From Caballeronia ptereochthonis (lineage in GTDB: Bacteria > Pseudomonadota > Gammaproteobacteria > Burkholderiales > Burkholderiaceae), in assembly GCF_001545075.1 (NCBI RefSeq), contig NZ_FCOB02000025.1:1-64000 (forward strand): DNA of 64,000 bases, given 5' to 3'. Position numbers and translations under genes: made by a program. The notes beneath the pieces are model-generated. The model had not been told where the DNA came from, ran no database searches, and was given only the letters and a program-made list of their open reading frames with translations. Positions 1 through 32,880 of this stretch are shown here, piece after piece (position 1 is the stretch's first letter; the number at the start of each line of letters is the position of its first letter).

Positions 1-102
1 CGCCACCAGCTTTCTTTCGGGCTGCGAGCCCTTGTAACACAAACGGGCTACCGCTTCGAGCGAGCGAAAGGGATCAGTTTTCGAACGCTGAAGGCAATAT
101 AC

Positions 103-267: not shown

Positions 268-388
268 ACAGCGCTACGCGCTGCCGCAGGGTCTGCAAGG
301 GAAACCGTCGTTAGGCAGAAGCGGAGAGATGGAAGCGTTAGTAAAGAAGCGGGCGCACACCCGATTTCCCCTTCGGCCGCGCAGCGGG

Positions 389-561: not shown

Positions 562-682
562 TCTTTGCAGCAGCAAAGAAAGTGACTGCCGCCCCGCACA
601 GGGGCAGTGCTAATAGACCACTAAGAACTCAGGATTCCACCAAAGCCCAAGCAAGCAAACCAAACAAATAAACCAAAAAAAA

Positions 683-1849: not shown

Positions 1850-1859
1850 CGCCGCGCCC

Positions 1860-3014: not shown

Positions 3015-3020
3015 GACGGC

Positions 3021-3713: not shown

Positions 3714-3714
3714 G

Positions 3715-4923
3715 CTATTTCTTCGCCAGGGTGACCCTGGCGCCATCCTTGAGCTTGTCGCCGGGCGACAGAACGACCACGTCGCCGGGCTTGACGCCCT
3801 GCACCGCGAGCAGATCGCCGATGCGCTCGCCCGTCGTCACCGGCACTTCGCGTGCGGTGTCGTGCTCGACCACGTAGACCACTTTCCTGCCGCCGCGCGT
3901 GACGACCGCCGCCGGCTGCACGGCCACCACCGCCTTCTTTTCCTCGGGCGGCACCGGCTTCGAGAGAAACGCGACCTTCGCGGACATGTCCGGCAGCACG
4001 CGCGCGTCGCGCTCGACGAAGCGCACCTTGACGAGCACGGTGGCCTTCGAGCGGTCGACGGTCGGCACCATGCGCGACACGCGGCCCGCGAAGCGCACGT
4101 CGGGCAGCGCGTCAAGCTGGATCTCGCATGGCTGTTCGACGGCAATGCGCGCGATGTTCGACTCGGCGACATCGGCTTCGACTTCGAGCGTTTTCATGTC
4201 GGCGATCGTGACGACCGCGCCCTTGCTGTCCGACGCCGACGAGAACGGCGTGATGTTGTCGCCCACGTTGGCGTGCTTCTCCAGCACGACGCCGTCGAAG
4301 GGCGCGCGGATCACGGTCTGATCGACGGCGACCTGCGCGGCCTGCGCGTTGGCGCGCGCGGAGACGATCGCGGCTTCGTCGCTGTTGACGGAGGCCTGGG
4401 CCTTGTCGTAGCGGGCGAGCGCGGCGTCGTACTGCGTGGCCGGAATCGCGCCCTGCGGCGCGAGGATCCTGAAGCGCCTGAGGTCGACTTCCGCGTTCTT
4501 GAGCTCGGCGCGCTGCAGCTCGAGATTCGCCTGCGCGACCTTTACTTGCGCGCGCGCCTGCGCGAGCGAAGCGGCGACGTCAGCGCTTTCGAGCCGCGCG
4601 ATGATCTGGCCTTCCTTGACTTCCGTGCCTTCGAGCACGCCGAGCCATTCGACGCGCCCCTGCCCCTTCGACGCCACCGCCGCCTTGCGCTGCGGCACGA
4701 CATAGCCGGTGGCGTTCAGCAGCGTGTAGCTTTGCGACGGATAGACGGACGTGACCGTGGCCGTCTCCACGGCTTGCGGTCCGGTGAGCCTGAACGCCAC
4801 GGCGACCAGCGCGAGCAGGATCAGTGCAATGACCGCATAGCGGAGCCAGCTGCGCCGGCGCCGCGGCATGACGGCGGACTGTCCCCGGTCGATCCTCAGT
4901 TTTTCTAAATCGTGTTCAGCCAA
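3715..4923 (-). CDS. Periplasmic adaptor (MacA/HlyD family) of ABC exporter
   Basis: Membrane-fusion protein of 402 residues, first gene of the operon. A cytoplasmic Arg-rich N-terminus precedes a single membrane anchor (about 28-48). A split lipoyl/biotinyl domain brackets a coiled-coil hairpin rich in Ala, Gln and Glu (about 110-200), and beta-barrel and membrane-proximal domains follow. It would link the two permeases to an outer-membrane channel, which is not encoded nearby. Its stop codon is one base from the ATPase start, so translational coupling is likely. Heavy-metal, macrolide or lipid export are all possible. Confidence 0.87.
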   Translation of the reverse strand: MAEHDLEKLRIDRGQSAVMPRRRRSWLRYAVIALILLALVAVAFRLTGPQAVETATVTSVYPSQSYTLLNATGYVVPQRKAAVASKGQGRVEWLGVLEGTEVKEGQIIARLESADVAASLAQARAQVKVAQANLELQRAELKNAEVDLRRFRILAPQGAIPATQYDAALARYDKAQASVNSDEAAIVSARANAQAAQVAVDQTVIRAPFDGVVLEKHANVGDNITPFSSASDSKGAVVTIADMKTLEVEADVAESNIARIAVEQPCEIQLDALPDVRFAGRVSRMVPTVDRSKATVLVKVRFVERDARVLPDMSAKVAFLSKPVPPEEKKAVVAVQPAAVVTRGGRKVVYVVEHDTAREVPVTTGERIGDLLAVQGVKPGDVVVLSPGDKLKDGARVTLAKK

Positions 4924-5249
4924 TTTATGAGCTTGCGCCGCCGTGTGGTTTCGCGGGTCGGAGTGCGGTGGATGGACGGTCAGTATAGCGCTGCATTCCG
5001 TTGCGACCGATGTCCGGTTTGAGCGATCGCAGAAATCGCATCCTTCGCTATTTGGACGATTTCAAAGACACTGGATTTCGGAATCGCCAACGTCGTCCAC
5101 GCATTTCAGCGGCAATTGACATTCAAGCACGTTTCAGGACTATCGGAACGCTGTCGAACGGGGTCCGACTCGCGCGACAAATACGGCGCCAGCCAGCCAG
5201 CCAGACGGCCGCTATGAGTGGTCGTTTTCATTCCCAGGAAAGAAAGCAC
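4924..5249. other. Intergenic region upstream of ABC operon
   Basis: About 325 bases without a gene. It must hold the minus-strand promoter of the ABC operon. I see no convincing consensus promoter, terminator or operator. The slightly lower GC content from about 5000 onward is unlike the flanking genes and continues into the DUF3800 fragment, so this may be the edge of a transferred segment. Confidence 0.4.
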
Positions 5250-5485
5250 GTGTTGTGCATCTGCTATATCGACGAGACAGGGTGCAGTACGGCGCTGCCT
5301 GAGAAAAAGACTGACATTCAACCGCTTCTCGCCATTGCCGGTTTAATCGTTCATCAGGAAGCGGTCGCCGATTTGACGCGGGAATTTCTTAAAATCAAGC
5401 GCGCATATTTTCCAGGCGCATTTACGTCGAATCATCCGCTCGACGATGTGCGTCAGGAAATCAAGGGCTCGGAACTGTCCACGCA
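5250..5485 (+). pseudogene. Truncated DUF3800-family gene (N-terminal fragment)
   Basis: From a GTG at 5250, preceded by AGGAAAG at 5236, the frame encodes a start typical of DUF3800 proteins: an early Y-I-D-E motif, a hydrophobic strand (LLAIAGLIVHQE), a Leu/Lys helix ending in K-R-A-Y-F, and the family's E-I-K-G-S motif. After about 78 residues the resemblance stops, at the point where the frame enters the end of the antisense LysR gene (stop at 5505). A normal DUF3800 protein has roughly 200-300 residues, so about two thirds is missing. DUF3800 proteins are often found in phage or defence islands; function is unknown. The frame stays open to 5924 only as an antisense shadow. Confidence 0.5.
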
Positions 5486-5504
5486 ATGCGTCAAACGCCA
5501 ACGT

Positions 5505-6434
5505 TCACACACCGTGCGCATGCTTCAGATCGAGCGCAATGAAATCGACGAATGCGCGTATGCGTGCCGACATCTGATGCCGCCGCGAATACACCGCGTA
5601 GATATCGGCGTTGGGCGTTTCGTGCTCGGGCAGCACGTGAACGAGACGGCCGTCGGCGAGATAGTCCTTGATGTCCCACTCCGCGCGCATCAGGATGCCG
5701 TGCCCTTCCAGCGCCCATTTCACCGCGATCTCGCCGTCGTTGGTCGTGAGATTGCCTTTGATGCGCACGCTTTCGGTCTTGCGCGCGGCGCCGCGACCCG
5801 TCGTCAGCCGCCATACACCATATGCTTCATCCCCCTGACGGATGCCGATGCAGTTGTGCCGCGTCAGATCATGCGGCGTCGCCGGCGTGCCGTGTGCTGC
5901 GATATACGCGGGCGCCGCGCATAGCAGCCGCCGGTTCGGCGCGAGACGCCGCGCGATCACGCGCGTGTCCGGCGGCTCGCCGAAGCGGATGCAGACATCG
6001 AAAGTGTCGTCGGTGAGCGGCGGCGGCGCGACCGACAACTGAAGCTGCACCGACACCTGCTGATGCCGCGCGACGAAGCGCGAAATCGCCGGCGCGACAT
6101 GACTGCGCCCGAAACCGAGTGTCGCGTTTACGCGCAGCAGCCCCTTCGGGCTCTTCTTCGCGTTGCCGAGCAACTCGGCCAGTTCGTCGATCTCGTCCAG
6201 AATGCGCCGCGCATGCTCCAGATAGAGCTCGCCTTCGGGCGTGAGCATCATCCGGCGCGTCGTGCGGTTGACGAGCGGCACGCCGGCGCGCGCCTCCATC
6301 TGCGTGAGCCGCTTGCTGACGGCAGCCGCCGTCAGGCCCAGCTCACGGGCCGCCGCGCTCAGGCTGCCTGAGGCGGAGAGCGTCGAAAAGAAGCTCAGAT
6401 CGGACGGCTGGACGGTGTCGGCCACGGCTTTCAC
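5505..6434 (-). CDS. LysR-family regulator, DmlR-like
   Basis: Transcription factor of 309 residues with an N-terminal winged helix (residues 12-70, SGSLSAAARELGLTAAAVSK) and a LysR substrate domain (about 95-295). The start is a GTG at 6434; the region just upstream holds an inverted repeat. The gene is divergent from a D-malate/tartrate dehydrogenase gene, the arrangement seen for dmlR-dmlA and tartrate regulators, so it probably activates that gene in response to D-malate or tartrate. The inducer is inferred from the neighbour, not from the protein. Confidence 0.88.
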   Translation of the reverse strand: MKAVADTVQPSDLSFFSTLSASGSLSAAARELGLTAAAVSKRLTQMEARAGVPLVNRTTRRMMLTPEGELYLEHARRILDEIDELAELLGNAKKSPKGLLRVNATLGFGRSHVAPAISRFVARHQQVSVQLQLSVAPPPLTDDTFDVCIRFGEPPDTRVIARRLAPNRRLLCAAPAYIAAHGTPATPHDLTRHNCIGIRQGDEAYGVWRLTTGRGAARKTESVRIKGNLTTNDGEIAVKWALEGHGILMRAEWDIKDYLADGRLVHVLPEHETPNADIYAVYSRRHQMSARIRAFVDFIALDLKHAHGV

Positions 6435-6441
6435 TTGTGAA

Positions 6442-6462
6442 TCAAAGTTAAAGATGCTTTGA
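6442..6462. promoter_or_regulatory. Candidate LysR operator in divergent promoter
   Basis: TCAAAG and CTTTGA are perfect 6-bp inverted arms separated by 9 bases, between the LysR start (6434) and the dehydrogenase start (6548). The spacing resembles LysR-type recognition sites (dyad around a T-N11-A core). Binding by the adjacent regulator is inferred. Confidence 0.45.
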
Positions 6463-6547
6463 GTTTAGCACCGGTTGCAGTGCTCGAAGTTGGGTAAAGT
6501 GAACTCACGCCGCAACACACCCGACACATCGAAGACGGAGACGAGAC

Positions 6548-7633
6548 ATGAAGACGTATCGCATCGCAAGCATTCCTGGCGACGGCATCGGCAAGGAGGT
6601 CGTGCCAGCCGGCCAGCAAGTGCTCGAAGCTTTGGCACGCAGCACGCAAAATTTTGCATTCGAATTCGAGACTTTCGACTGGGGCGCGGACTACTACCGC
6701 CAGCACGGCGTGATGATGCCCGCCAACGGCCTCGACGCGATCCGCGACAAGGACGCAATCCTGTTCGGCTCCGCCGGCGACCCGGACGTGCCCGATCACA
6801 TCACGCTGTGGGGCCTGCGCCTGAAGATCTGCCAGGGCTTCGACCAGTACGCGAACGTGCGCCCGACGCGCATCCTGCCGGGCATCGACACGCCGCTCAA
6901 GCGCTGCAAGCCCGAGGATCTGAACTGGGTGATCGTGCGCGAGAACTCGGAAGGCGAATATTCGGGCGTCGGCGGCCGCGTGCATCAGGGCCATCCGATC
7001 GAGGCGGCGACCGACGTGTCGATCCTCACGCGCGCCGGTGTCGAACGCATTATGCGTTTTGCATTCAAACTCGCGCAGTCGCGTCCTCGCAAGCTGCTGA
7101 CCGTCATCACGAAGAGCAACGCGCAGCGTCACGCGATGGTCATGTGGGACGAGGTCGCGCTGGCGATCTCGAAGGAATTCCCGGACGTGAAGTGGGACAA
7201 GGAACTGGTCGATGCGGCCACCGCGCGCATGGTCAACCGGCCCGCCACGCTCGACACGATCGTCGCCACCAACCTGCACGCCGACATCCTGAGCGATCTG
7301 GCCGCCGCGCTCGCGGGCAGCCTCGGCATCGCGCCGACCGGCAACATCGATCCCGAGCGCCGCTATCCGTCGATGTTCGAGCCGATCCACGGTTCCGCCT
7401 TCGACATCATGGGCAAGGGCCTCGCCAATCCGATCGGCACGTTCTGGTCCGTCGTGATGCTGCTCGAACACCTCGGCGAGTTCGAGGCCGCGAGGCGCGT
7501 GATGGACGCGGTCGAAGCCGTCACCGCCGATCCCGCGCTGCACACCGGCGACCTCGGCGGCACGGCCACGACCGCGCAAGTGACGGCCGCCGTGTGCGCT
7601 TTCGTCGAGCGCGTGGAAGCCGCAGCCGCTTAA
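6548..7633 (+). CDS. ttuC: D-malate/tartrate dehydrogenase (decarboxylating)
   Basis: NAD-dependent, metal-dependent beta-decarboxylating dehydrogenase of 361 residues, the usual length of TtuC/DmlA. Features of the isocitrate/isopropylmalate dehydrogenase superfamily are visible: IPGDGIGKE at the start, the substrate Arg cluster LRLKICQ...NVRP, ENSEGEYSG, and the metal-binding Asp run NLHADILSDLAAALAGSLG, then EPIHGSAFDIMGKGLANP. It acts in the cytoplasm on D-malate (to pyruvate) or tartrate isomers. GGAGA lies 10 bases before the ATG. Next comes a TtuB-like carrier, so this is an uptake-and-oxidation unit. Two stretches, 6652-6672 and 7050-7068, use unusually AT-rich codons. Tartrate versus malate cannot be decided from sequence. 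Confidence 0.88.
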   Translation: MKTYRIASIPGDGIGKEVVPAGQQVLEALARSTQNFAFEFETFDWGADYYRQHGVMMPANGLDAIRDKDAILFGSAGDPDVPDHITLWGLRLKICQGFDQYANVRPTRILPGIDTPLKRCKPEDLNWVIVRENSEGEYSGVGGRVHQGHPIEAATDVSILTRAGVERIMRFAFKLAQSRPRKLLTVITKSNAQRHAMVMWDEVALAISKEFPDVKWDKELVDAATARMVNRPATLDTIVATNLHADILSDLAAALAGSLGIAPTGNIDPERRYPSMFEPIHGSAFDIMGKGLANPIGTFWSVVMLLEHLGEFEAARRVMDAVEAVTADPALHTGDLGGTATTAQVTAAVCAFVERVEAAAA

Positions 7634-20422: not shown

Positions 20423-20757
20423 GACGTTTCTCCTTGCGATGCGTGAACGAGGATCGAGCGCGTGCTGGCGCCCGCCAGGTTCTTTTGCATCGGGTATGCC
20501 AATCGGCGCGGCCTCGGCTTCGATACGCGCCGGGCACTGTGCCGCGGGCCTGCGACGCACGCGCTCCCTCGACTCCCTGAACCCGTCAGTTCGACTCCGC
20601 CCAACAGGACGCGCGCGAACTGTCGGCATTCGCAACATCATCCCCTCCTTTCGTTTCGCTAACACTCTCGATGCCCACCGTGCATTGGCGCAGGACTTGC
20701 TTTTCCCGGGGCTCAAACATCCGGCGACACGACCGGTGCCTGCACAAGGAGGAGATG
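20423..20757. other. Intergenic region between GG-leader peptide and sigma-54 activator
   Basis: Divergent promoter region of about 335 bases. The right end carries AAGGAGGAG just before the activator start. On the minus strand a second strong Shine-Dalgarno-like sequence (AAAGGAGGGG, about 20642-20651) precedes ATG codons at 20641 and 20638 that are in frame with the small peptide gene. I see no clear sigma-70 or sigma-54 promoter and no terminator. Confidence 0.4.
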
Positions 20758-22701
20758 ATGCAAGACGACATCCGCGACATCGCGGCTTCCCACGACGAAC
20801 GAGAGAACGGCTGGCTGATCCCGTCGATCCGCAAGGCGCACGAACGGTCGGAGACGTTCGGTCTGAACGCGTCTACGCGACCCGACTACGACGTGCTGAC
20901 CGACGGCGAGCTGCTGCTCAAGCTCGAACAGAACCGGGTGCTATGTGCGCACGCGACGCCGGTCATGGAGACCTTGCGCGAGCAGATCGTCAACACGCAG
21001 AGCATGATCGTGCTGACCGATGCGCAGGGACTCATCCTCCATTCCACCGGCGACGACGACTTCCTCGCCCGCGCGGAGAAAGTCGCGCTCAGGGCCGGCG
21101 CCAACTGGGCCGAGGAACGGCAAGGGACCAATGCGATCGGTACGGCGATCGCCGAGCGGTCTCCCACCGTCGTGCACGGCGATCAGCACTATCTCGCGGC
21201 CAACCGCTTCCTGACGTGCTCCAGCGTGCCGATTCTCGACCCTTACGGCGAGCTGATCGGCGTGCTCGACGTGACAGGCGATCACCGCAGCTACCATCGC
21301 CACACGATGGCGCTCGCGCGCATGTCCGTGCAGATGATCGAAAACCATCTGTTTTCCAGCACTTTTCAGGGCATGCTGCAGATCGCGTTTCACAGCCGCC
21401 CCGAGTTTCTCGGCACGCTGATGGAAGGCATCATGGCCTTCACATGCGATGGCCGCTTCCTGTCGGCAAACCGCAGCGCACAGTTCCAGTTCGGCCTGCC
21501 GCTCACGGCGATGCGCGCGCACACGCTCTCTTCGCTCTTCGGACTGTCGAGCGCGCATCTGATCGATCGTTCGCGCGCGAGCCGCGGGCCGCATATGACG
21601 CTCGATCTGAACAACGGCACCGTGGTGTGCGCCCGCGTGCGGCTGAATCGCGCGCCGGTGGCCGACATGCCGTCCATGTCGCTTGCGACGCGAGCGGCGC
21701 CGCGACCGTCCGCTTCGAAAGACGCGTCATCGAAACTGGCCTCGCTCGATACCGGCGACCCGAAAGTCGCTGCCGTGATCGGCAAGGTGCGCAAGGTGAT
21801 CGGCAAGGACATACCGATCCTCATCACCGGCGAAACCGGCACCGGCAAGGAGCTGTTCGCGCAAGCCATTCACGGCGATTCGCCGCGTCGCGCGGGGCCG
21901 TTCGTCGCGGTGAACTGCGCTTCGATTCCGGAGAACCTGATCGAATCCGAGCTCTTCGGCTATGAAGAAGGCGCGTTCACGGGCGCGCGGCGCAAGGGGG
22001 CGGCGGGCAAGCTCATGCAGGCGAACGGCGGCACGCTCTTTCTGGACGAAATCGGCGACATGCCTTATTCGCTGCAAGTCAGGCTCTTGCGCGTGCTGCA
22101 GGAGCGCGTCGTCGATCCGCTTGGATCGAGCAAGTCGATACCGGTCGACGTCGCGATCATCTGCGCGACGCACCGCAATTTGCGCGAAATGATCGCGCAG
22201 AACCGCTTCCGCGAGGATTTGTACTACCGCCTGAACGGCCTCGTCGTGAAACTGCCGCCCTTGCGCGAGCGCACCGACCTTGCGGCTGTGATCACGAAGA
22301 TGCTGGACACGGTGAGCGCCGAAGAAGCGTGCGGCGTGCGCCTGTCCATCGACGAGGAAGTCATGACGCTCTTCGAACACTACGCGTGGCCGGGCAATTG
22401 CCGGCAACTGGGCAATCTGCTGCGCACCGCAGCCGCCATGGTGGACGACGACGGCTGCATCCGCCGGGACCATCTTCCCGAAGACTTCTTCGAGGAGCCA
22501 CGAAGCACCGTGCAGAACATGTCTGAAGCATACGCTTCACCGACGCTCGCCTCGGGGCGCCTTCAGGAAGTCACCGCTACGGTGATCGCGGCGACGCTTG
22601 CTCGTCATCGTGGCAACGTATCCGCGGCGGCGCGCGCACTCGGCGTCTCGCGCAACACCATCTATCGCAAGATGCCCTTCTGTTCAACAATGGAGCAATG
22701 A
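20758..22701 (+). CDS. Sigma-54-dependent activator, AcoR-like (GAF, AAA+, Fis HTH)
   Basis: Enhancer-binding protein of 647 residues. A GAF-type sensor occupies about 70-210 (EERQGTNAIGTAIAER, a typical AcoR sequence). The central AAA+ domain has Walker A GETGTGKE at 358-365, the sigma-54 contact loop GAFTGA from residue 405, and Walker B GGTLFLDEIGDM. A C-terminal Fis-type helix-turn-helix follows (GNVSAAARALGVSRNTIYRK). Relatives control acetoin and quinoprotein alcohol dehydrogenase genes. Here it directly precedes pqqA, pqqD and a PQQ-dependent dehydrogenase, and two sigma-54 promoters lie downstream at 22831 and 23494. ATGs at 20755 and 20758 are both possible; the second has better spacing from AAGGAGG. 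The ligand is unknown, but an alcohol or aldehyde is likely. Confidence 0.9.
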   Translation: MQDDIRDIAASHDERENGWLIPSIRKAHERSETFGLNASTRPDYDVLTDGELLLKLEQNRVLCAHATPVMETLREQIVNTQSMIVLTDAQGLILHSTGDDDFLARAEKVALRAGANWAEERQGTNAIGTAIAERSPTVVHGDQHYLAANRFLTCSSVPILDPYGELIGVLDVTGDHRSYHRHTMALARMSVQMIENHLFSSTFQGMLQIAFHSRPEFLGTLMEGIMAFTCDGRFLSANRSAQFQFGLPLTAMRAHTLSSLFGLSSAHLIDRSRASRGPHMTLDLNNGTVVCARVRLNRAPVADMPSMSLATRAAPRPSASKDASSKLASLDTGDPKVAAVIGKVRKVIGKDIPILITGETGTGKELFAQAIHGDSPRRAGPFVAVNCASIPENLIESELFGYEEGAFTGARRKGAAGKLMQANGGTLFLDEIGDMPYSLQVRLLRVLQERVVDPLGSSKSIPVDVAIICATHRNLREMIAQNRFREDLYYRLNGLVVKLPPLRERTDLAAVITKMLDTVSAEEACGVRLSIDEEVMTLFEHYAWPGNCRQLGNLLRTAAAMVDDDGCIRRDHLPEDFFEEPRSTVQNMSEAYASPTLASGRLQEVTATVIAATLARHRGNVSAAARALGVSRNTIYRKMPFCSTMEQ

Positions 22702-22909: not shown

Positions 22910-22984
22910 ATGCAATGGAGCACCCCCGCCTTTACCGATATGCGTTTCGGCTTCGAGATCACGATGTATATCGCCACCCGCTAG
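22910..22984 (+). CDS. pqqA: PqqA, precursor peptide of the cofactor PQQ
   Basis: A 24-residue peptide encoded from the ATG at 22910, preceded by AAAGGAGATGACC. It has the family pattern W-x-x-P-A-[FY]-T-D-x-R at the start and F-G-F-E-[IV]-T-M-Y at the end. The Glu and Tyr three residues apart (E16 and Y20, here E-I-T-M-Y) are the atoms' source for pyrroloquinoline quinone. PqqE and PqqD act on this peptide in the cytoplasm. It lies 208 bases after the sigma-54 activator and behind a sigma-54 promoter. It is too short for standard ORF calls. pqqB, pqqC and pqqE are not in the window. Confidence 0.93.
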   Translation: MQWSTPAFTDMRFGFEITMYIATR

Positions 22985-22997
22985 CGCCTCGATGAAG

Positions 22998-23029
22998 GCA
23001 TGCCCGGGTTCCACCGAACCCGGGCATGC
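22998..23029 (+). terminator. Strong hairpin between pqqA and pqqD (attenuator/terminator)
   Basis: GCATGCCCGGGTTC and GAACCCGGGCATGC form a perfect 14-bp stem with a CACC loop, followed by ATCTTCTTCC. It starts 13 bases after the pqqA stop. The tail is T-rich but not a pure T-run, so partial termination or 3-prime protection of the short pqqA message is likely, which would give more pqqA than pqqD transcript. Confidence 0.8.
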
Positions 23030-23053
23030 ATCTTCTTCCCGGATTTCTTCCAC

Positions 23054-23335
23054 ATGAACCCGACCACCGCGCGTGCAACCGCACGCACGCGTCCACGTTT
23101 GCGCGCGCCATGGAAGCTGCATTGGCATGCGGACATGCGTTCGTGCGAAATCGTGCATTCACGCGGCAGCGTCGAACTGAACCGCAGCGCGGGCGAAATA
23201 CTCGCGCGCTGCGACGGCACGCGCGAGCTGGACGACATCATCGGCGAACTCGAAGCGCGCTTCGGCACGTCGGGTCTTGCCGCGGACGTGTATCGCTTCA
23301 TCGACGAGGCGCGCCGTCTCGGCTGGCTCGATTGA
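23054..23335 (+). CDS. pqqD: PqqD, PQQ peptide chaperone
   Basis: Protein of 93 residues, the normal size of PqqD. It has the family landmarks RPRLRAPWKLHW, a mid-protein ELNRSAGEILARCDGTREL (the L-N-x-[ST]-A-x-x-I-L-x-x-C-[DN]-G core), and a C-terminal DVYRFIDEARRLGWLD. It binds PqqA and presents it to the radical SAM enzyme PqqE. The ATG at 23054 has only a weak ribosome site (GGATT). The usual pqqABCDE order is broken here: pqqA is followed directly by pqqD. Confidence 0.88.
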   Translation: MNPTTARATARTRPRLRAPWKLHWHADMRSCEIVHSRGSVELNRSAGEILARCDGTRELDDIIGELEARFGTSGLAADVYRFIDEARRLGWLD

Positions 23336-23493: not shown

Positions 23494-23509
23494 TGGCACA
23501 TGACTTGCC
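23494..23509 (+). promoter_or_regulatory. Sigma-54 promoter (-24/-12) upstream of PQQ dehydrogenase
   Basis: TGGCACATGACTTGCC matches the sigma-54 consensus TGGCAC-N5-TTGC at every defined position, with 10 bases between GG and GC. Transcription would begin near 23521, about 67 bases before the dehydrogenase ATG at 23588. This is one of the best promoter matches in the window. Confidence 0.82.
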
Positions 23510-23587: not shown

Positions 23588-25327
23588 ATGAAGACACGCC
23601 CAGTACCGGCCATGCGCATCGCGGCCCTCGCCGCAGGCGCCGCCGTCGCATTCGGCTTCGCGCAGCAACGGGCCACCGCGGCCGGCGGCACGCCGGCGCA
23701 GTATCCGGACGTCAGCTATGAACGTCTTGCGAGTGCGCAGGACGATCCAGGATGGCTCACGTACTACCGCACCTATAACGGCCATGCGCATTCGCCGCTC
23801 AAGCAGATCGACACGACCAACGTGAAGAATCTGAAGCAGGCGTGGAGCTATAAATTTCCCGCGGATCTTCAGCAAGGCTTCGAAGCGACGCCCATCGTCA
23901 ACGGTCGCTTTCTCTTCGTGACGACGCCCAAGGACAACGTCTACGCATTCGATGCCGCAACGGGCAAGCAGCTCTGGAAATACGAGCCCAACCTCGGTGC
24001 GGAGTCGTTCAAGACGGCATGCTGCGACGTGGTCAATCGCGGCGTCGCGCTCTATGGCAAGAACGTCTACGTCGCGATGCTGAACGGCGAGGTGGCCGCG
24101 CTCGATGCGCAAACCGGCGCGCTCGTCTGGAAGAAGGCGATGTTCGATCCGGGCGTCGGCTATGCGTTCTCGCTTGCGCCGCTCGCGCTCGACGGCGCGC
24201 TCGTCGTTGGAAGTTCGGGCGGCGAGTATGGCGCGCGCGGCTTCATCGCGGCGCTCGATCCGGCCGACGGCAAGGTGCTCTGGAAACGCTACACAGTGCC
24301 CGGCGCGAAGGAAGCGGGCGGCAACACATGGCCCGACGGCATGCAGGAGCATGGCGGCGCGCCCGCATGGCTCACCGGCACCTACGACGCCGCGAGCAAG
24401 ACCCTCTACTGGGGCGTGGGCAATCCGGGACCGTGGCTCGCGGATCTTCGTCCCGGCGACAATCTCTATTCCGATTCGCTGCTTGCGCTCGACCCGAAAA
24501 CGGGCGGCCTCAAGTGGCACTATCAATACACGACCCACGACACGTGGGACTACGACGGCGTCAACACACCCGTGCTCGCGAACATCAAGTACGAGGGCAA
24601 GGACTACGACGCGATCATTCATGCGGACCGCAATGGCTATTTCCATGCGATCGATCGCAGCAGCGGCAAGCTGATCTACGCGCGGCCCTTCGTCACGGCG
24701 ACATCCGTGACGGGCTATACGGCCGATGGCAAGCCAGTGCAGGACGCATCGAAGTATCCGAAGGCGGGTACGACCATCGAAACGTGTCCGAGCTTCCTGG
24801 GCGGCAAGAACTGGTGGTCCGTTTCATACGATCCGCAAAAGCATCTCGCAATCGTGCCGGCCCTGCATGCGTGCATGTCGCTGTCGGGCAAATCGGTGAC
24901 CTACATGGAAGGCCTGCCATATCTCGGCGAAGGCTTCGAGATCAAGCCCGAGCCCAACAGCAAGGGCTACGGTGAACTGCAGGCAATCGACGTCGATACC
25001 GGCAAGAAGGTCTGGAGTCACTGGAGCAAGCTGCCGTGGAACGGCGGTGTCGCAACGACCGCGGGCGGTCTCGCGTTCAGCGGCTCACTCGACGGACGCC
25101 TTTACGCCTTCGACGAAGCCACGGGCAAGGTCCTGTGGCAGAGCCCGAAGCTCGCAAGCGGCATCATCGCGCAGCCCTCGGTGTATGAAATCGACGGCAA
25201 GGAGTATGTCGCCGTGCTCGCGGGCTATGGCGGCGCGAACCCGATCTGGGGCGGCCCGATGGCGAAGGCCGCGGAGAAGGTGCCGCGCGGCGGCACGCTC
25301 TACGTGTTCGCGCTCAATCGCACTTGA
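23588..25327 (+). CDS. PQQ-dependent alcohol dehydrogenase, predicted lanthanide-dependent
   Basis: Periplasmic quinoprotein of 579 residues. A signal peptide (about 1-32) is followed by an eight-bladed propeller with repeated tryptophan-docking motifs (FDAATGKQLW, LDAQTGALVW, LDPADGKVLW, FDEATGKVLW). The vicinal cysteine pair C145-C146, which forms the rare disulfide ring near PQQ, is present. The catalytic region is HDTWDYDGVN: D321 is the expected catalytic base and D323, two residues on, is the extra Asp that marks lanthanide-binding enzymes (XoxF, PedH) versus calcium enzymes (MxaF, PedE). There is no fused cytochrome domain. It oxidises primary alcohols to aldehydes, passing electrons to a cytochrome c, probably the next gene. 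Start ATG 23588 has GGAGACA upstream. Confidence 0.88.
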   Translation: MKTRPVPAMRIAALAAGAAVAFGFAQQRATAAGGTPAQYPDVSYERLASAQDDPGWLTYYRTYNGHAHSPLKQIDTTNVKNLKQAWSYKFPADLQQGFEATPIVNGRFLFVTTPKDNVYAFDAATGKQLWKYEPNLGAESFKTACCDVVNRGVALYGKNVYVAMLNGEVAALDAQTGALVWKKAMFDPGVGYAFSLAPLALDGALVVGSSGGEYGARGFIAALDPADGKVLWKRYTVPGAKEAGGNTWPDGMQEHGGAPAWLTGTYDAASKTLYWGVGNPGPWLADLRPGDNLYSDSLLALDPKTGGLKWHYQYTTHDTWDYDGVNTPVLANIKYEGKDYDAIIHADRNGYFHAIDRSSGKLIYARPFVTATSVTGYTADGKPVQDASKYPKAGTTIETCPSFLGGKNWWSVSYDPQKHLAIVPALHACMSLSGKSVTYMEGLPYLGEGFEIKPEPNSKGYGELQAIDVDTGKKVWSHWSKLPWNGGVATTAGGLAFSGSLDGRLYAFDEATGKVLWQSPKLASGIIAQPSVYEIDGKEYVAVLAGYGGANPIWGGPMAKAAEKVPRGGTLYVFALNRT

Positions 25328-25415: not shown

Positions 25416-26630
25416 ATGAATCATCCACTCAACAGCATTCGCGCCGTGAGCATGCTGGCGGCATGCGTCGCACTCACGCCGTCGCCCTCGGACGCAGCCG
25501 TGAAGATCTGCACGTTTCCCGGCAGTCCGTCGGCGGCACTGGATCGCACCGTTGCTCAAGCGGTCTTCGCTCGCGCCAGCATCGCCGCGACGTTCATTGC
25601 GAAGGGCATCGGCGAAGGCGATGACGACGGCGTATCGCTCAGGGAACTCGACAAGACCCTCGCACGCGAATGCGATGTGATCGCGGGCTTTCCGCGCTCC
25701 ACCGTCGCCGATGCATCCGGCGGCAAGATGCGCTTCTCGCGCGGCTATCTGCGCGCGGGCTACGTCAGCATCGAAGCACCCGGGGCCGATCTCCAGGACG
25801 CGGCGAAGCGCACGGTCGCCGCGACGTATGCGAGTCCCGCGCAATTGATCGCCGTGCAACAGCCCGATGTGAAACTCGATCTGGAGAACACGTCGGCATT
25901 GACGGTCGAAGCAGTAGCGAAGGGACGTGCGCAACGCGCGATCGTCTGGTATCCGGCTGTCGTCGCCTATCGCATGGCGCATCCGGAGCGCAGCTTCAGC
26001 GTCGCGTCCGCGCATTCGCCGTATGCGGACTGGCAGCTGACATTCGCGTTCGGGCCGAAGAGCGAAGCCTTGCGCCCCCGCATCGACGATGCGCTCACGG
26101 CCTTGACCAACGATGGCCGCCTGCATGAACTGACGAAGCAATGGACCTTGCCCGCCGACACCGCGTCGGCACGCCATCCCGACACGCCTTCCACTGCGTC
26201 GTCTGCGCGTTCGGGCTTCATGCTCGCCGACATGAACGCGTCGCGCGAGGGCCGTTTCATCAAGATCGCGAACGAAGGCGGTGGGGAGCCGCCCTCGTTC
26301 GAACAAGCGCAAACTACGCACGGCAAGACGCTCTATGCAAGCTCATGCGCGAAATGCCACGGCGCTCAACTGCAAGGCGTGACGGCGCCCGCATTGCAAG
26401 GACCGGCCTTCGCGCCGCCATCGAACTCTCATCTGACGGTGGGCGGCATCTTCACCTATATGGCGACCAACATGCCCGCCGATCGCCCAGGCAAGCTCAA
26501 GGACCAGGACTATGCCGACATCATGGCCTTCCTGCTGCTGTCGAACGGATACAAACCGGGCGCGACGAAGATGACGGCCGACAGCGCGCGCGCCTCCAAG
26601 TTGCCGCTCAACGCCGGACCCGCACATTAG
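25416..26630 (+). CDS. Fusion of XoxJ-like periplasmic binding domain and cytochrome c
   Basis: Periplasmic protein of 404 residues. A signal peptide covers about 1-28. Residues 29-245 form a type-3 solute-binding fold (ICTFPGSPSAALDRTVA; later ALTVEAVAKGRAQRAIVWYPAVV) similar to the MxaJ/XoxJ accessory proteins. After a Ser/Ala/Thr-rich linker, residues 298-385 are a class I cytochrome c with heme site CAKCH at 311-315 and probable axial Met M353 in TNMPADRPG. In methylotrophs the binding protein (XoxJ) and cytochrome (XoxG) are separate; here they are one chain. Located 88 bases after the dehydrogenase and likely cotranscribed, it is the best candidate electron acceptor. The start is the ATG at 25416; upstream frame is shadow. 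Confidence 0.82.
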   Translation: MNHPLNSIRAVSMLAACVALTPSPSDAAVKICTFPGSPSAALDRTVAQAVFARASIAATFIAKGIGEGDDDGVSLRELDKTLARECDVIAGFPRSTVADASGGKMRFSRGYLRAGYVSIEAPGADLQDAAKRTVAATYASPAQLIAVQQPDVKLDLENTSALTVEAVAKGRAQRAIVWYPAVVAYRMAHPERSFSVASAHSPYADWQLTFAFGPKSEALRPRIDDALTALTNDGRLHELTKQWTLPADTASARHPDTPSTASSARSGFMLADMNASREGRFIKIANEGGGEPPSFEQAQTTHGKTLYASSCAKCHGAQLQGVTAPALQGPAFAPPSNSHLTVGGIFTYMATNMPADRPGKLKDQDYADIMAFLLLSNGYKPGATKMTADSARASKLPLNAGPAH

Positions 26631-27185: not shown

Positions 27186-28235
27186 ATGACAGCGATCACC
27201 CGCACTCGACGCCACCTGCGCGCCTTCTTCGGCGCGCCCGAAGCAAGACGCCTCTTGCGCACGCTGATGAGCTGCGCGATCAGCTACGCCGCAGCGCGTC
27301 TCGCCGCGCTGCCGGAGGGCTACTGGGCGCTCATCACGACGCTCGTCATCGTGACGCAGCCGAGCCTCACGCAAGCGGTCGATACGGCGCGCGACCAGAT
27401 CATCGGCGCATGCATCGGCGCGGTGGCGGGCGTGCTCGGCATCGTCGCGATGGAGCGCGGCGCGCCGCCGCTCGCGGTGTTCGCCGTCGCGCTCGTGCCG
27501 CTCGCCGCGCTGAGTGCGAAACGTCCCGCGTTGAGACTCGCATGCGTCACGCTCGTGATCGTCGTACTGATTCCGGCAGGCGAAGGCTCGCCTTTCGAGC
27601 GGCCCTTGCATCGCGTATTGGAGATATTGATCGGCGCGGCATCGGCGTTCGTGGTGTCGGCAATCTGGCCGAATCGCGCGCTCAAGGCAGCGCATCGCAG
27701 CGTCGCCGACACCTTGAGGAGCCTGGGTCAACTGATCGGACTGTATCTGTCCGGCGAGCACGACGAAGCCCGCGCGATGCGCCTCGAATCGAAAAGCACG
27801 GATGCGCAGAAGGCGCTCGACGATGCGTTGAAAGAAGCCGAACGCGAGCACATCATCGTGCTCGTGCAGAATCGCCGCTCGGATGCGATCGACAAGGCCG
27901 CGCCTTTCCTGCGCCGCCTGCACAGCGATGCGCTCTTTCTCGCCAAGGCGGTGGCTCGCCTCGACAGCGAGACGTGTGCGGCCCGGCTCGGCGATACGGG
28001 CCGCGCGTTGCAGGCGCTCTTCGAAACACTGGCTAGCGTGCTCGCTTCGACTCATCAGGACGAAGCGAAGCTCGCACGCGCACGCGCGTCGGTGAACGAA
28101 CTGAAGGACGCGCTGGCCGCGCGCGAGCCGAGCCACGGCGCACAGGAAGTGGCGCAGTTCGTCGCCGGCCTCATCGTCGCCGATCTCGACGCACTGATTT
28201 CGACCATCTATCCGCTCAAGGAGCCGAGCGCTTAA
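27186..28235 (+). CDS. FUSC-family membrane protein (aromatic acid exporter-like)
   Basis: Protein of 349 residues. The N-terminal half has five to six closely spaced helices with the FUSC pattern, including EGYWALITTLVIVTQPSLTQAVD and the repeated IGACIGAVAG. The C-terminal half (about 185-345) is soluble and helical (RSDAIDKAAPFLRRLHSDALFL). Relatives (AaeB, YccS) export hydroxylated aromatic acids, or affect the envelope; full-length AaeB is nearly twice as long, so this is a half-size form. The ATG at 27186 lacks a good ribosome site. Its stop overlaps the stop of the convergent PLP-enzyme gene by four bases. Confidence 0.78.
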   Translation: MTAITRTRRHLRAFFGAPEARRLLRTLMSCAISYAAARLAALPEGYWALITTLVIVTQPSLTQAVDTARDQIIGACIGAVAGVLGIVAMERGAPPLAVFAVALVPLAALSAKRPALRLACVTLVIVVLIPAGEGSPFERPLHRVLEILIGAASAFVVSAIWPNRALKAAHRSVADTLRSLGQLIGLYLSGEHDEARAMRLESKSTDAQKALDDALKEAEREHIIVLVQNRRSDAIDKAAPFLRRLHSDALFLAKAVARLDSETCAARLGDTGRALQALFETLASVLASTHQDEAKLARARASVNELKDALAAREPSHGAQEVAQFVAGLIVADLDALISTIYPLKEPSA

Positions 28236-29380
28236 CGCGAAAGGCCGCGCGCGTCGATCGGCCAGATGTCGGCCACGCGTTCGCCTCGATAGCAGACATA
28301 TTGGTCGTAGAGATTCACCGTCGGATCGCAATGCCCGGGCGGCAGGCGCAACCGCTCGCCGACGAGCGCCGTGAAGATTTCTTCGGGCATGCCTTGCGCC
28401 TGCAACATGCCGTGCTCGTCGTTCGCCGCGATATAGGTCAGCGCGGGCTCGGCGCTTCCATCGAGCCAGAGCGCACTGCGCGGCAAGCCCGAATCCACCG
28501 CGAGTCCCTTCAGGCCGACATCGCACACGGCCATGCCGGGGCGAGTCGCGCTCATCACCGTCGAGAGCACGAACAGGCTATGGCGCCAGCGCAATTCGCC
28601 GCCCCACCCGAGGCCGCCGTAGTCACCGTCCATGAAGAGATACGAACCGGGCTGAACTTCGGTATAGACGCCGCTCGCGGCATCGAACTCGACCGTGCCG
28701 GTGCCGCCGCCCGTCACGATGCCGCAGCGCACGCCGCGTGCATCGAGCGCGCGCACGTAGCTTGCGGCGATTTCCGCCGCGTGACCGGCTGCGGTCTTGC
28801 GTGCGTTCCAGTCGGCGACGTGCTGGATGCCGCCGTGATACGCCTGAATGCCCGCGAAGCGCAGCGCATTCTGCGCGGCGATGCCGTCCACGAGCGCGAG
28901 GAGCGCGTCTTCGCTCGTCACGCCGCAGCGATGCTGACCGGCATCGACTTCGGGCAGCACGTCGATCGTCACGCCCGCGCGCGCCGCCGCGATGCCCAAC
29001 GCCAGCACTTGTGGCAATGCATCCACGCAAACCGACAGCCGCACGTGCGCGGCGAGCTCGACGGCCATCGCCAGCTTGTCGGCGCCGACGAACTCGTTGC
29101 TGACGTGGATGCTCGCGATCCCGGCCGCCGCGAACGGATACGCCTCGGAAAGCTTCTGACAGCACACGCCGACCGCGCCCGCTTCGACCTGACGCTTCGC
29201 AATCTCGCTGGACTTGTGCGCCTTCGCGTGTGGTCGCAGCGCGACGCCGTGGCGCGCGGCGAACGCGGTCATCGCCGCGAGATTGGCGTCGAAGGCGTCG
29301 AGGTCGATCATCAGGGAAGGCGTGGCGACCGATGCAAGCGAGTCGCCTACGCGAGCGGCGGGCGGAGGGGCGAGTGTCAT
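28232..29380 (-). CDS. DSD1/D-threonine aldolase-family PLP enzyme
   Basis: Protein of 382 residues with an alanine-racemase-type N-terminal barrel and a DSD1 C-terminal beta domain. The PLP lysine is probably K53 in RPHAKAHK. Metal ligands of this family are visible in PGHCDPTVNLYDQYV near the C-terminus. Relatives include D-threonine aldolase, D-serine dehydratase and D-3-hydroxyaspartate aldolase. An aldolase giving glycine and an aldehyde or glyoxylate would match the glyoxylate-using aminotransferase encoded upstream, but the two are not in one tight operon. The substrate remains open. Confidence 0.83.
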   Translation of the reverse strand: MTLAPPPAARVGDSLASVATPSLMIDLDAFDANLAAMTAFAARHGVALRPHAKAHKSSEIAKRQVEAGAVGVCCQKLSEAYPFAAAGIASIHVSNEFVGADKLAMAVELAAHVRLSVCVDALPQVLALGIAAARAGVTIDVLPEVDAGQHRCGVTSEDALLALVDGIAAQNALRFAGIQAYHGGIQHVADWNARKTAAGHAAEIAASYVRALDARGVRCGIVTGGGTGTVEFDAASGVYTEVQPGSYLFMDGDYGGLGWGGELRWRHSLFVLSTVMSATRPGMAVCDVGLKGLAVDSGLPRSALWLDGSAEPALTYIAANDEHGMLQAQGMPEEIFTALVGERLRLPPGHCDPTVNLYDQYVCYRGERVADIWPIDARGLSR

Positions 29381-29473
29381 GGTGAAGGGTGGCGGTGAAG
29401 TATCGTCAAGCCTCGATCATATCGCTGCATTCTGCATGATGAATGCATAGCGCAATATGGCCGCAGTCAGGAC

Positions 29474-30712
29474 TCAAGCCGGAACTTCCGTTTCCAGAAT
29501 CGCGCCTTCGTCCTTGAGCGCCTGAATGCGCGCGTCGTCGAAGCCGTATTCGCCGAGCACCTCTCCCGTGTGCTGTCCGAGCAGCGGCGCGGGGCGCGAC
29601 GCCTTCGTGCAGCCCTCCGAAAAATGTATCGGCAAGCCGATGCCGCGCATCGGGCCCGCGAGCGGATGCTCGGTTTCGACGATCATCCCGCGCGCGATGG
29701 CCTGTTCATGCGACGACGCTTCCGGTACGCCCAGCACCGCGCCGCTCGGCAAGCCGATTTCGTCGAAGCACGCGAGCCATTCGTCGGTGGTCCGCTCGAC
29801 GAGCCGCGCCGTCAGAATCCCGACCAGCGCCTCGCGATGTTTCAGCCGCCCCGCGTTGGTCTGAAAGCGCTCGTCTTCGGCCAGGCCAGGAATGTTCAAC
29901 ACGCCGACGAGTCGCTCGTAATTGCTCTGATTCGCCGCGCCGATGTTGACCCAGCCGTCGCGCGTGCGGAATGCCTGATACGGCGCGCTCGTCGGATTGG
30001 CAGATCCGGCTTTGGGCAAGACGGTGCCATCGGCGAAGTAGTTGGCGAAGGCCCAGTACATCTGCTGCAGGCCGGCTTCGAAAAGCGATGTATCGACCAT
30101 CTGCCCGAGGCCGGTGGCCTGCTTCCTCGCATACGCCGCGCTGACGCCGAGCGCCGCCAGAATGCCCGCGTTGATGTCGGTGACGGGCGAGCCTGCCTTG
30201 ATCGGCGCCTGGCCCGGCTCGCCGGTCATGCTCATCAGCCCGCTCAAACCTTGCGCGATGAGATCGAAACCGCCCTTGTCCGCCATGGGCCCGCTGCGTC
30301 CGTAACCCGAGATCGCGCAATAGATGAGCCCGGGGTTCGCCGCCTTGAGCGTTTCGTAGCCCATGCCGAGCTTTTCCATCGTGCCGCGCCGATAGTTCTC
30401 GGTCACGACGTCCGCGCTCGCGAGCATCTTCCTGAGCACTTCCTTGCCGCCTTCCGTCTTGAGATTGAGTGCGATGCCGCGCTTGTTGCGGTTCACGATC
30501 ATGAACGATGCGGACTCGCCGCTCGCGAGGATCGGCGCGAAGCGCCTGCAATCGTCGCCATTGGGAATCTTTTCGACCTTGATGACGTCGGCGCCCATGT
30601 CCGCGAGCATCATCCCGCAGATCGGCCCCGACATGATGTGCGCGAGCTCGATCACACGCATGCCCGCAAGCGGTCCCGTGCCCGGCGCGGCAACTGGTTT
30701 CGTGTCTGCCAT
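29474..30712 (-). CDS. CaiB/BaiF-type (class III) CoA transferase
   Basis: Protein of 412 residues, normal for the family. Typical sequences are LAGMRVIELAHIMSGPICGMMLADMGADVIKVE at the start and GQMVDTSLFEAGL, in which the Asp is the expected nucleophile. Class III enzymes move CoA between carboxylates (formate, succinate, carnitine, benzylsuccinate and others). It begins 3 bases after the stop of an enoyl-CoA hydratase gene (ribosome site AAGGGA), so activation of an acid followed by hydration or dehydration of its CoA ester is implied. Substrate unknown. Confidence 0.88.
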   Translation of the reverse strand: MADTKPVAAPGTGPLAGMRVIELAHIMSGPICGMMLADMGADVIKVEKIPNGDDCRRFAPILASGESASFMIVNRNKRGIALNLKTEGGKEVLRKMLASADVVTENYRRGTMEKLGMGYETLKAANPGLIYCAISGYGRSGPMADKGGFDLIAQGLSGLMSMTGEPGQAPIKAGSPVTDINAGILAALGVSAAYARKQATGLGQMVDTSLFEAGLQQMYWAFANYFADGTVLPKAGSANPTSAPYQAFRTRDGWVNIGAANQSNYERLVGVLNIPGLAEDERFQTNAGRLKHREALVGILTARLVERTTDEWLACFDEIGLPSGAVLGVPEASSHEQAIARGMIVETEHPLAGPMRGIGLPIHFSEGCTKASRPAPLLGQHTGEVLGEYGFDDARIQALKDEGAILETEVPA

Positions 30713-30715
30713 GAT

Positions 30716-31498
30716 TCAACGTCCCTTGAATTGCGGTTTGATCTTGTCGAGAAAGGCCTGATAGCCGATGCGGAAATCTTCCGTGCCGAAGCAGGCGAAG
30801 CCTTCGTCGAGTTCTTCTTCGGTGAGCGGCGCGGAATCCATCACGCGACGCACGAACCGCTTGTGCCAGCGTGCGACGAGCGGCGCGCCATCGGCGATGC
30901 GCCGCGCGGTCTCGCAGGTGTGCGCCGTGACTTCGCCGTCCGCGACGACGCGCGTGACGAGCCCTTTCGCAAGCGCCTCCTGCGCGCCGAAGATGCGGCC
31001 TTCGAGAAGAATCTCGAGTGCGACCGCCGGTCCCGCGAGCCTCACGAGGCCATCCATTTCCGCATGCGCCATCACGAGGCCGAGGTTCTTGATGGGCACG
31101 CCGAAGCGGCTCGATTCGCCGCAGATGCGCAGGTCGCACATCGCCGCGATCTCGAGGCCGCCGCCGACGCAAATGCCGTGAATCATCGCGACGATCGGAT
31201 GGCGGCACTCGCGCAACGCATTCAACGTGCGATGCATGATCGCGCCGTATGCCTTCGCCTGCTCGACATTGGCGCGGTCAGTCCGGAACTCGCCGATGTC
31301 GTTGCCCGGCGAAAACGCTTTCTCGCCCGCGCCGCGCAATACGATGCAGCGCAAAGAGTCGTCGCCGGAGAGCCTTTCCATGGTCTCCCCCAGCGAGCGC
31401 CACAGAGGCTTGGTCATCGCATTGAGCTTCTCGGGGCGGTCGATGACGACCGTGGCGATATCGCCCTCGCGCTCGATCAGGATGGATGGTTCCGCCAC
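30716..31498 (-). CDS. Enoyl-CoA hydratase/isomerase family protein
   Basis: Crotonase-fold protein of 260 residues starting at a GTG (31498) with AAGGAGG 5 bases upstream. The oxyanion-hole sequences AFSPGNDIGEF and HGICVGGGLEIAAMCDLRI are clear. The usual second catalytic Glu region reads NLGLVMAHAEMDGL, so hydratase versus isomerase or hydrolase cannot be settled. It is coupled to the CoA transferase gene (3-base gap) and follows an MFS carrier gene by 95 bases. Confidence 0.87.
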   Translation of the reverse strand: MAEPSILIEREGDIATVVIDRPEKLNAMTKPLWRSLGETMERLSGDDSLRCIVLRGAGEKAFSPGNDIGEFRTDRANVEQAKAYGAIMHRTLNALRECRHPIVAMIHGICVGGGLEIAAMCDLRICGESSRFGVPIKNLGLVMAHAEMDGLVRLAGPAVALEILLEGRIFGAQEALAKGLVTRVVADGEVTAHTCETARRIADGAPLVARWHKRFVRRVMDSAPLTEEELDEGFACFGTEDFRIGYQAFLDKIKPQFKGR

Positions 31499-31593
31499 AT
31501 CGCCTCCTTGAATTGAATATTGCATGCATTGTTCCGATGCGGTTCGATGCATGCAGAATGCATCGAACCGCGACGCCCGCGGGCGTCGCCCGG

Positions 31594-32880
31594 TCACACG
31601 AACTTGCGCACCTGCGCCGCGTCCGGTTGTTCCTCTTCCACGTCGAGGACGCGGTCGGGGCGCATCGTGAACGAGAGGATGATGCCCACCGCCATCAGGA
31701 TCATCGACACGGTGAACGGCAGGTTCCAGTTGCCGGTGCGGTCGATCAGCCAGCCGCCCAAGACCGGGCTGATGATCGCGGCGAGCGCCGAGCCCGAATT
31801 CATGATGCCGGAGGCGGTGCCCGCGTGTTTCGGCGCGATGTCCATCGGCACGGACCACATCGGGCCGATCGTCATTTCGTTGAAGAAGAAGCCGGCAGAA
31901 AGACAGAGCGCCGCCAGCGTGATCGAGATGTTAGACACGAGCATGATCGGCGCGAGCGACAGCAGCGTAAGCAGCATGCACACGCCGACCATCACGTTGC
32001 GCGCGAGCCGGACGTTGCCGCTCTTTCTCAGGATGCGGTCGGTGACGGAACCGCCGAGCCAGTCGCCGAGCACGCCCGCAAAGAACACGCCGGAGGCGAA
32101 GAGCGCGGATTTGCCGAGCTCCATATGATAGCTGTGCAGAAAATACTGCGGAATCCAGCCGAGAAAAAGCCACAGCACCCAGCCATAGCAGAAGTACACG
32201 GCAGTGACGGGCGCCATGCGGCCGAGCAGCGTGCGCCATGGCACGGGCGCGCGCTCCTTCACGCCTGTATAAGTGACGAGCGTCGCGCATTCCGATTCCG
32301 TGATGCGCGGATGATCGCGCGGATTGTCGCGGAAGTACAAGACCCACGCGATCGCCCACAGAAAGCTCACGACGCCCGTGATGACGAAGGCGCCGCGCCA
32401 GCTCGTCGCGACCATCAGCCAGACGATGAGCGGCGGCGCGACCGCATTGCCGATGCGCGACGCTGCATGCGTAATGCCTTGTGCAAAACCGCGCTGGTCG
32501 GAGGGCATCCAGTTGGACATGGCGCGCGTCGCGGTCGGGAAAGTCGCGCCTTCGCCGAGGCCGAGCAGCACGCGTGCGACGATCAGCGAGACGAAGCCGC
32601 CCGAGAGACCCGTCAGCACGGTGGCGCCTGCCCAGATGATCGCGCAGAGCGTAAGCGTGCGACGCGGCCCGAAACGGTCGCCGACCCATCCGCCGATGAT
32701 CTGGAATACAAGATACGGATACGCGAACGCGGAAAACACGAAACCGACCTGCGTATGCGAGAGGCCCAGCTCCGCGCCGAACTGGCTCGCCGCGGTGCTG
32801 ACATTGACGCGGTCGATATAGGTGATGAAATACATCGCGCATAGCAGCAGCAGAACGCGCGTCGTGGCTCGACGGAACAT
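31594..32880 (-). CDS. MFS transporter, anion:cation symporter family
   Basis: Carrier of 428 residues with 12 predicted helices and the ACS-family start YFITYIDRVNVSTAA, followed by the loop GGWVGDRFGPRRTL. It is the third carrier of this family in the window and sits inside the aminotransferase-to-CoA-transferase cluster, so it probably imports the cluster substrate, a carboxylate. The C-terminal tail is acidic (DVEEEQPDAAQ). Start ATG at 32880. Confidence 0.86.
   Translation of the reverse strand: MFRRATTRVLLLLCAMYFITYIDRVNVSTAASQFGAELGLSHTQVGFVFSAFAYPYLVFQIIGGWVGDRFGPRRTLTLCAIIWAGATVLTGLSGGFVSLIVARVLLGLGEGATFPTATRAMSNWMPSDQRGFAQGITHAASRIGNAVAPPLIVWLMVATSWRGAFVITGVVSFLWAIAWVLYFRDNPRDHPRITESECATLVTYTGVKERAPVPWRTLLGRMAPVTAVYFCYGWVLWLFLGWIPQYFLHSYHMELGKSALFASGVFFAGVLGDWLGGSVTDRILRKSGNVRLARNVMVGVCMLLTLLSLAPIMLVSNISITLAALCLSAGFFFNEMTIGPMWSVPMDIAPKHAGTASGIMNSGSALAAIISPVLGGWLIDRTGNWNLPFTVSMILMAVGIILSFTMRPDRVLDVEEEQPDAAQVRKFV

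Follow-up and report, generated by a model that had tools for sequence, protein, structure and literature searches.

We have identified, in a 64,000-nucleotide stretch of DNA from Caballeronia ptereochthonis (hereafter the window, on contig C39 of a 7.7-Mb genome in 117 contigs), a gene that encodes a PQQ alcohol dehydrogenase (ADH), predicted to be periplasmic and likely to have a lanthanide site, presumably served by a fused protein as electron acceptor and expressed from a putative sigma-54-activated operon. The gene (23588..25327, forward strand) encodes 579 residues in an open frame, with an N-terminus that, by eye, resembles a signal peptide. Its product matched the PQQ methanol/ethanol dehydrogenase family TIGR03075 at 570.6 bits (cut-off 480.05), and the site residues of that family are all present (C145-C146, E213, N279 and D321), thus bearing out the quinoprotein alcohol dehydrogenase named in an earlier note on this DNA. 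The 'empty' quinoprotein family TIGR04528 was considered and rejected, with 385.7 bits against a cut-off of 650.

The metal site is where a lanthanide is suggested. The segment HDTWDYDGVN, read in the earlier note as carrying Asp at residues 321 and 323, indeed occupies residues 317-326 of the translated frame with Asp at both places. As orthologs we took the best 80 of 231 relatives from a genome scan, leaving out the other 151; in these 80 (78-95% identical to the window enzyme) D321, D323, E213 and N279 are invariant, so that D323, the additional Asp by which lanthanide-type alcohol dehydrogenases are recognized, is found in 80/80. Given this invariance and the fact that the HDTWDYDGVN block aligns gap-free with the metal site in enzymes of solved structure, the two Asp residues are not there by chance. 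The structural comparison proposed in the earlier note was made with eight PDB chains, a small sample of three lanthanide and five calcium structures. The vicinal cysteines of the PQQ site, Cys145-Cys146 in the window enzyme (codons at 24020..24025, forward strand, as are all codons given here), read CC in 8/8 chains, and in all eight the WD-x Asp is aligned to the catalytic Asp321 (24548..24550). Two residues beyond Asp321, at the place of the marker Asp323 (24554..24556), the three lanthanide structures all have Asp (PedH 6zcw, XoxF 4mae and 6oc5), and XoxF 6dam likewise reads WDYD, whereas 1flg, 1kb0, 1kv9, 4tqo and 1g72 have Ser, Thr, Thr, Ala and Ala, respectively (0/5 Asp), as had been claimed for calcium enzymes; 1kb0, 1kv9, 4tqo and 1g72 are presumably such enzymes. 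For 1flg (ExaA), calcium dependence is stated in an excerpt of PMC10409515. In a second column, just before the metal ligand Glu213 (24224..24226), the window enzyme has Gly (Gly212), as do all three lanthanide structures, and the five calcium structures carry Ala or Asp; the ligand Asn279 is encoded at 24422..24424. A Thr near the site in XoxF corresponds to Pro282 in the window enzyme, with Pro also in PedH and in calcium enzymes. Going by the title of a 2020 paper by Good et al., the marker Asp is reportedly essential. Because Gly before Glu and Asp two residues after the catalytic Asp both match the lanthanide structures and differ from those with calcium, the two columns, in a small sample, agree with a lanthanide site. 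Lanthanide dependence of the window enzyme is accordingly a sound prediction from its residues, with a light lanthanide as the most likely metal.

The extra Asp is a good marker of lanthanide use, but not a decisive one. Within the methanol/ethanol family structures it behaved as the earlier note had supposed, but membrane glucose dehydrogenases (m-GDH) bear it too, the two in the same genome, L005 (contig C46) and L006 (contig C61), reading WDMD at the marker place. Enzymes of this kind have a membrane anchor and act on substrates other than those of alcohol dehydrogenases. According to an excerpt of PMC11996626, a characterised m-GDH forms complexes with Ca, Mg, Zn and Sr despite its D-x-D motif, and the authors of that paper predict facultative lanthanide use for m-GDH; D-x-D by itself is therefore no proof of lanthanide use. 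Residues also do not strictly dictate metal use, since calcium PedE is described, in an excerpt of PMC10409515, as retaining 60-80% of its activity at 10 mM lanthanides. Taken together, these observations could be read as pointing to a metal-promiscuous window enzyme, with a D-x-D site that accepts lanthanides in a protein mostly loaded with Ca2+ or Mg2+ in the cell, as proposed for m-GDH. We consider this unlikely, as the two glucose dehydrogenases of the genome are imperfect guides, both having Asn at the Glu column and L005 also Val at the Asn column (Asn in L006), and as the marker tracked the metal in the eight aligned methanol/ethanol-family structures, assuming calcium for the four besides 1flg.

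To place the window enzyme among its relatives, as the earlier note had advised, we built two trees of PQQ alcohol dehydrogenases, one of 62 proteins and one of 49 after 13 long or odd rows were left out; both carry long-branch warnings. The Burkholderia-group enzymes (13 rows) form a single clade on a long branch, with 100/100 support in both trees. ExaA, PedH and their kin make up a separate clade (100/100) with the window clade outside it, and the XoxF/MxaF clade (100/100) excludes the window enzyme as well; neither tree resolved a sister of the window clade. Identity to the window enzyme is 42.3% for PedH, 42.1% for ExaA 1flg and 34-38% for XoxF and MxaF chains. The enzyme thus belongs to a Burkholderia-group lineage that is neither XoxF nor in the PedH/ExaA clade. 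Membership in PedH/ExaF (type 2b) in the strict sense was rejected on the position of the window clade outside the ExaA and PedH clade, in trees where no row was identified as ExaF; XoxF membership was likewise rejected, on the separate clade together with the low identity.

The near-equal identity to ExaA and PedH, along with NPGPW and a C-terminal WGG tail common to ExaA and the window enzyme, could be taken to mean that the window enzyme is a calcium ethanol dehydrogenase like ExaA and PedE and that its Asp323 is there incidentally. This is very improbable in our judgment, because at +2 and before Glu the window clade has Asp and Gly in 80/80 orthologs (best 80 of 231), as against Ser and Asp in ExaA, and because that clade lies outside the one with ExaA and PedH. 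We give still less credence to a methanol dehydrogenase of XoxF type whose XoxJ and XoxG have become one protein; D-x-D and Gly-Glu are held in common, and a fused solute-binding protein and cytochrome stands in place of XoxJ and XoxG, but XoxF and MxaF form their own fully supported clade at 34-38% identity and the genome has a XoxF-like gene of its own, with a true XoxJ near, on contig C74. The reading that we favor is that of a distinct lineage with a predicted lanthanide site.

The predicted structure is in keeping with this placement. An AlphaFold2 model built from the window enzyme and 41 orthologs reached a pLDDT of 72.9 and a pTM of 0.81, and Foldseek returned as top matches PedH 6zcv and 6zcw (TM 0.86/0.88), followed by ExaA and XoxF 4mae. 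The model supports the fold, with side-chain geometry at the metal outside its reach. The earlier note had proposed modelling the metal site itself; a PedH-like fold was obtained, but site geometry was not taken from the model because the active-site loops (residues 280-293 and 319-322) have pLDDT values below 50.

Immediately downstream, 88 bases after the stop of the dehydrogenase gene, begins a second gene (ATG at 25416, stop at 26630, forward strand) that fuses a periplasmic solute-binding domain to a cytochrome c, the presumed assembly factor and electron acceptor, respectively. Among 27 fusion members, Cytochrome_CBB3 was matched in 27/27 at E <= 1 (1.6e-10 for the window member) and SBP_bac_3 in 26/27 (best 2.3e-6; 0.011 for the window member). 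The CAKCH haem-binding motif (26346..26360, forward strand), with C307, C310 and H311 invariant in the 27-member alignment, together with the cytochrome c profile identifies the second half as a c-type cytochrome. Both halves lie directly downstream of the dehydrogenase in 77 of the 80 loci (best 80 of 231), the three others being L086, which is cut by a contig end, L089, with no match, and L024. In the last (1-7330, Burkholderia sp. E7m39), the downstream gene retains a signal peptide and cytochrome but little of the solute-binding half, to which a match is found some 4 kb upstream; the fusion may have split naturally here, or the assembly may be at fault.

The earlier note had described this partner as a XoxJ-cytochrome fusion. 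That a fused solute-binding and cytochrome c gene adjoins the dehydrogenase is correct, but its first half is at best a remote relative of XoxJ and MoxJ. At E <= 1, TIGR03871 (XoxJ) was matched in 24/27 fusion members (best 6.2e-6) and TIGR03870 (MoxJ) in 23/27 (best 3.8e-7); the window fusion scored 17.5 bits against TIGR03871, far under the cut-off of 212.15, and hhalign of its first half with one true XoxJ gave no link (probability 1.1%). A model of the fusion (pLDDT 67.3, pTM 0.58) retrieved amino-acid-binding proteins in a fold search, with neither MxaJ nor XoxJ named among the 50 matches listed. With profiles far under their cut-offs and the hhalign result, XoxJ family membership of the first half was rejected. 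Owing to the weak profile matches, the failed comparison with XoxJ and the fold of an amino-acid-binding protein, we use 'XoxJ-like' as a description, which is fair for the likely role and fold and does not denote family membership. In an excerpt of PMC12997753, PedG/XoxJ proteins are proposed to help cofactor insertion and PedF to take electrons; a fusion of solute-binding domain and cytochrome fits both proposals.

Upstream of the dehydrogenase lie three genes on the same strand. The first (20671..22701) encodes a sigma-54-dependent activator with GAF, sigma-54 AAA+ and Fis-type HTH domains (Pfam Sigma54_activat at 1.2e-69, GAF and HTH_8), the likely regulator of the cluster, a homolog of which occurs somewhere in the fetched stretch of 72/80 loci (best 80 of 231). 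It is followed by pqqA (22910..22984), absent from the earlier note, for the 24-residue PQQ precursor peptide (TIGR02107, 46.6 bits, cut-off 20), and pqqD (23000..23335, true start possibly the ATG at 23054), for the PQQ peptide chaperone (TIGR03859, 62.3 bits, cut-off 46; PF05402). PqqA was found in 67/80 and PqqD in 56/80 loci (best 80 of 231), some loci being cut by contig ends. Elsewhere in the genome, pqqC and pqqE are on contig C35, apart from the window pqqD, with a second pqqD-like stretch beside pqqE that is 41% identical to the window pqqD; pattern scans of a 12-kb stretch found no pqqA near pqqC/pqqE on C35. Three pqqA copies were found in the genome, on C39, C56 and C102, the C102 copy (L144) having neighbours that resemble, by eye, one-carbon (tetrahydromethanopterin-linked) genes.

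Between pqqD and the dehydrogenase, a -24/-12 promoter element of the sigma-54 type, TGGCACATGACTTGC (23494..23508, forward strand; pattern TGGC[AC][CT]N5TTGC), begins 94 bases before the start codon of the dehydrogenase. The 400 bases preceding the dehydrogenase contain the pattern in 80/80 loci (best 80 of 231) as compared to 124 of 4000 random 420-base segments from the same loci, which is strong evidence for predicted sigma-54 control across the clade. With the strict pattern, the 210 bases that precede pqqA showed no such element. In one Caballeronia record an ExaC-type acetaldehyde dehydrogenase follows the cluster, and an ExaC gene is within the fetched flanks of 16/80 loci, being absent from those of the other 64, the window included (best 80 of 231); the own genome has one ExaC over the cut-off, on another contig. 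Since these ExaC-type genes accompany the cluster in some relatives, ethanol or another short-chain alcohol is probably the substrate. A general family scan of ten neighbouring genes turned up no lanthanide transporter, lanmodulin or lanthanide-sensing regulator. Further downstream (28232-32880, reverse strand), genes of aldolase/dehydratase-like, CoA-transferase, enoyl-CoA hydratase and MFS transporter type apparently constitute a separate acid-catabolism cluster.

From these features we consider the following mode of action probable. Glu213, Asn279, Asp321 and Asp323 would hold PQQ and a trivalent light lanthanide in a periplasmic quinoprotein; a short-chain alcohol entering the periplasm would lose its proton to Asp321 as the base and its hydride to PQQ, and the electrons would then pass singly to the cytochrome c portion of the protein encoded downstream, whose solute-binding half probably docks on the dehydrogenase or helps to load it. 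The nearby sigma-54 activator would switch the operon on from the -24/-12 promoter, probably upon sensing the alcohol or its aldehyde. Of this picture, the sequence itself shows the family, the residues of the site, the promoter element and the conservation of the neighbours; the lanthanide as working metal, the substrate, the path of the electrons and the inducer are inferred.

The lineage is centered on the Burkholderia group, the best 80 of 231 relatives coming from Caballeronia, Paraburkholderia, Burkholderia and Trinickia as well as from a single bin labelled Ralstonia. Paraburkholderia xenovorans LB400 has an ortholog (L038). In a phylum draw of 299 genomes, which included few members of the family of the window genome, 66 genomes (own genome included) matched the window enzyme at E <= 1e-80, with only its own row above 45% identity among the matches listed; one other genome of the same genus in that draw had no match at this threshold. 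Of 58 genomes drawn from the genus, 28, the own genome counted, carry an ortholog (82-100% identity). In one 3.7-Mb genome of the genus (G323, contig C497), the dehydrogenase survives in pieces only, some with several stops; these remnants and the small genome are as in a reduced symbiont.

Besides the window enzyme, the quinoproteins of the genome include the XoxF-like protein, one WDLD protein and the two glucose dehydrogenases. The XoxF-like gene (C74, L134) is a 625-residue frame with WDYD, and the XoxJ nearby matched TIGR03871 at 300 bits. The WDLD protein (C48, L003/L136), with WDLDAVS and NPSPL, is close in the tree to a PQQ dehydrogenase on an Ideonella dechloratans plasmid (L133). MxaI (PF02315), the partner that the earlier note had reported lacking, had no match in the genome, a weak negative in that the same search matched none of 14 control genomes. 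Among the 58 genus genomes, the best 28 rows for an ExaA query (40-43% identical) were the window orthologs. The remaining 12 at E <= 1e-90, with 38-39% identity, aligned over the same range as the XoxF-like gene of the own genome and sat at places also matched in the genus search for the window enzyme. With a quinohemoprotein dehydrogenase query, the 28 rows at E <= 1e-90 were again the window orthologs (39-41%). Hence no calcium enzyme of the ExaA or quinohemoprotein type, the two kinds searched for, was recognised in the 58 genomes at E <= 1e-90.

We tentatively postulate, at somewhat less than even odds, that this Burkholderia-group lineage is obligately lanthanide-dependent, with no calcium twin and with a fused chaperone and electron acceptor under sigma-54 control. 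Under obligate dependence and with no calcium twin, there would be no metal switch, and periplasmic alcohol oxidation would be lost when lanthanides run out. If this is true, lanthanides would be a working nutrient for many soil- and plant-associated bacteria (Caballeronia, Paraburkholderia, Burkholderia), and the lineage would provide a new branch of lanthanide enzymes for comparison with XoxF and PedH. Since the 58 genomes apparently lack a calcium enzyme of the ExaA or quinohemoprotein type, the lanthanide prediction is testable by growth alone, and the natural fusion of solute-binding protein and cytochrome may show what a XoxJ-like role is, namely holding the dehydrogenase and its electron acceptor together.

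The earlier note had also seen interest in lanthanide-dependent alcohol oxidation outside the classic methylotrophs. Such a system is predicted here, but lanthanide use of this sort has already been published, for PedH of Pseudomonas putida (excerpt of PMC12997753) and for PedH and XoxF of Ideonella sakaiensis (excerpt of PMC11166783), so that the novelty is modest; in addition, a wider diversity of lanthanide PQQ alcohol dehydrogenases has been predicted from sequence (excerpt of PMC11996626). What appears to be less known is the Burkholderia-group branch with its fused partner and sigma-54 control, on which we found nothing in the literature searched, although the clade may already have a name.

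Among known systems, PedH of P. putida KT2440 and ExaF of Methylobacterium extorquens (PQQ-ADH type 2b) share the Gly-Glu, Asn and WD-x-D site as well as the fold, and PedH, the best solved relative of the window enzyme by both sequence and fold, also shares the WGG tail (for which the PedH chain was aligned) and a cytochrome c partner in the cluster. In contrast to PedH, the window enzyme, at 42.3% identity, lies outside the ExaA and PedH clade, has one fused partner that combines solute-binding protein and cytochrome, and has a sigma-54 promoter element. With XoxF5 and its XoxG and XoxJ it has in common the D-x-D site and a solute-binding-like protein and cytochrome c beside the enzyme; it differs in its separate clade, 34-38% identity, Pro in place of the XoxF Thr, and a C-terminus that is without the long XoxF insert, and the solute-binding half of its partner scores under the XoxJ/MoxJ cut-offs. 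The calcium ethanol dehydrogenases ExaA and PedE resemble it in identity (42.1% for ExaA), the WGG tail and the ExaC-type aldehyde dehydrogenase near some copies, whereas ExaA has Ser at +2 where the window enzyme has Asp, and Asp before Glu where it has Gly. Lastly, the m-GDH proteins share D-x-D at the aligned place, but both copies in the genome have Asn at the Glu column, and identity to the window enzyme is 29.6% for L005.
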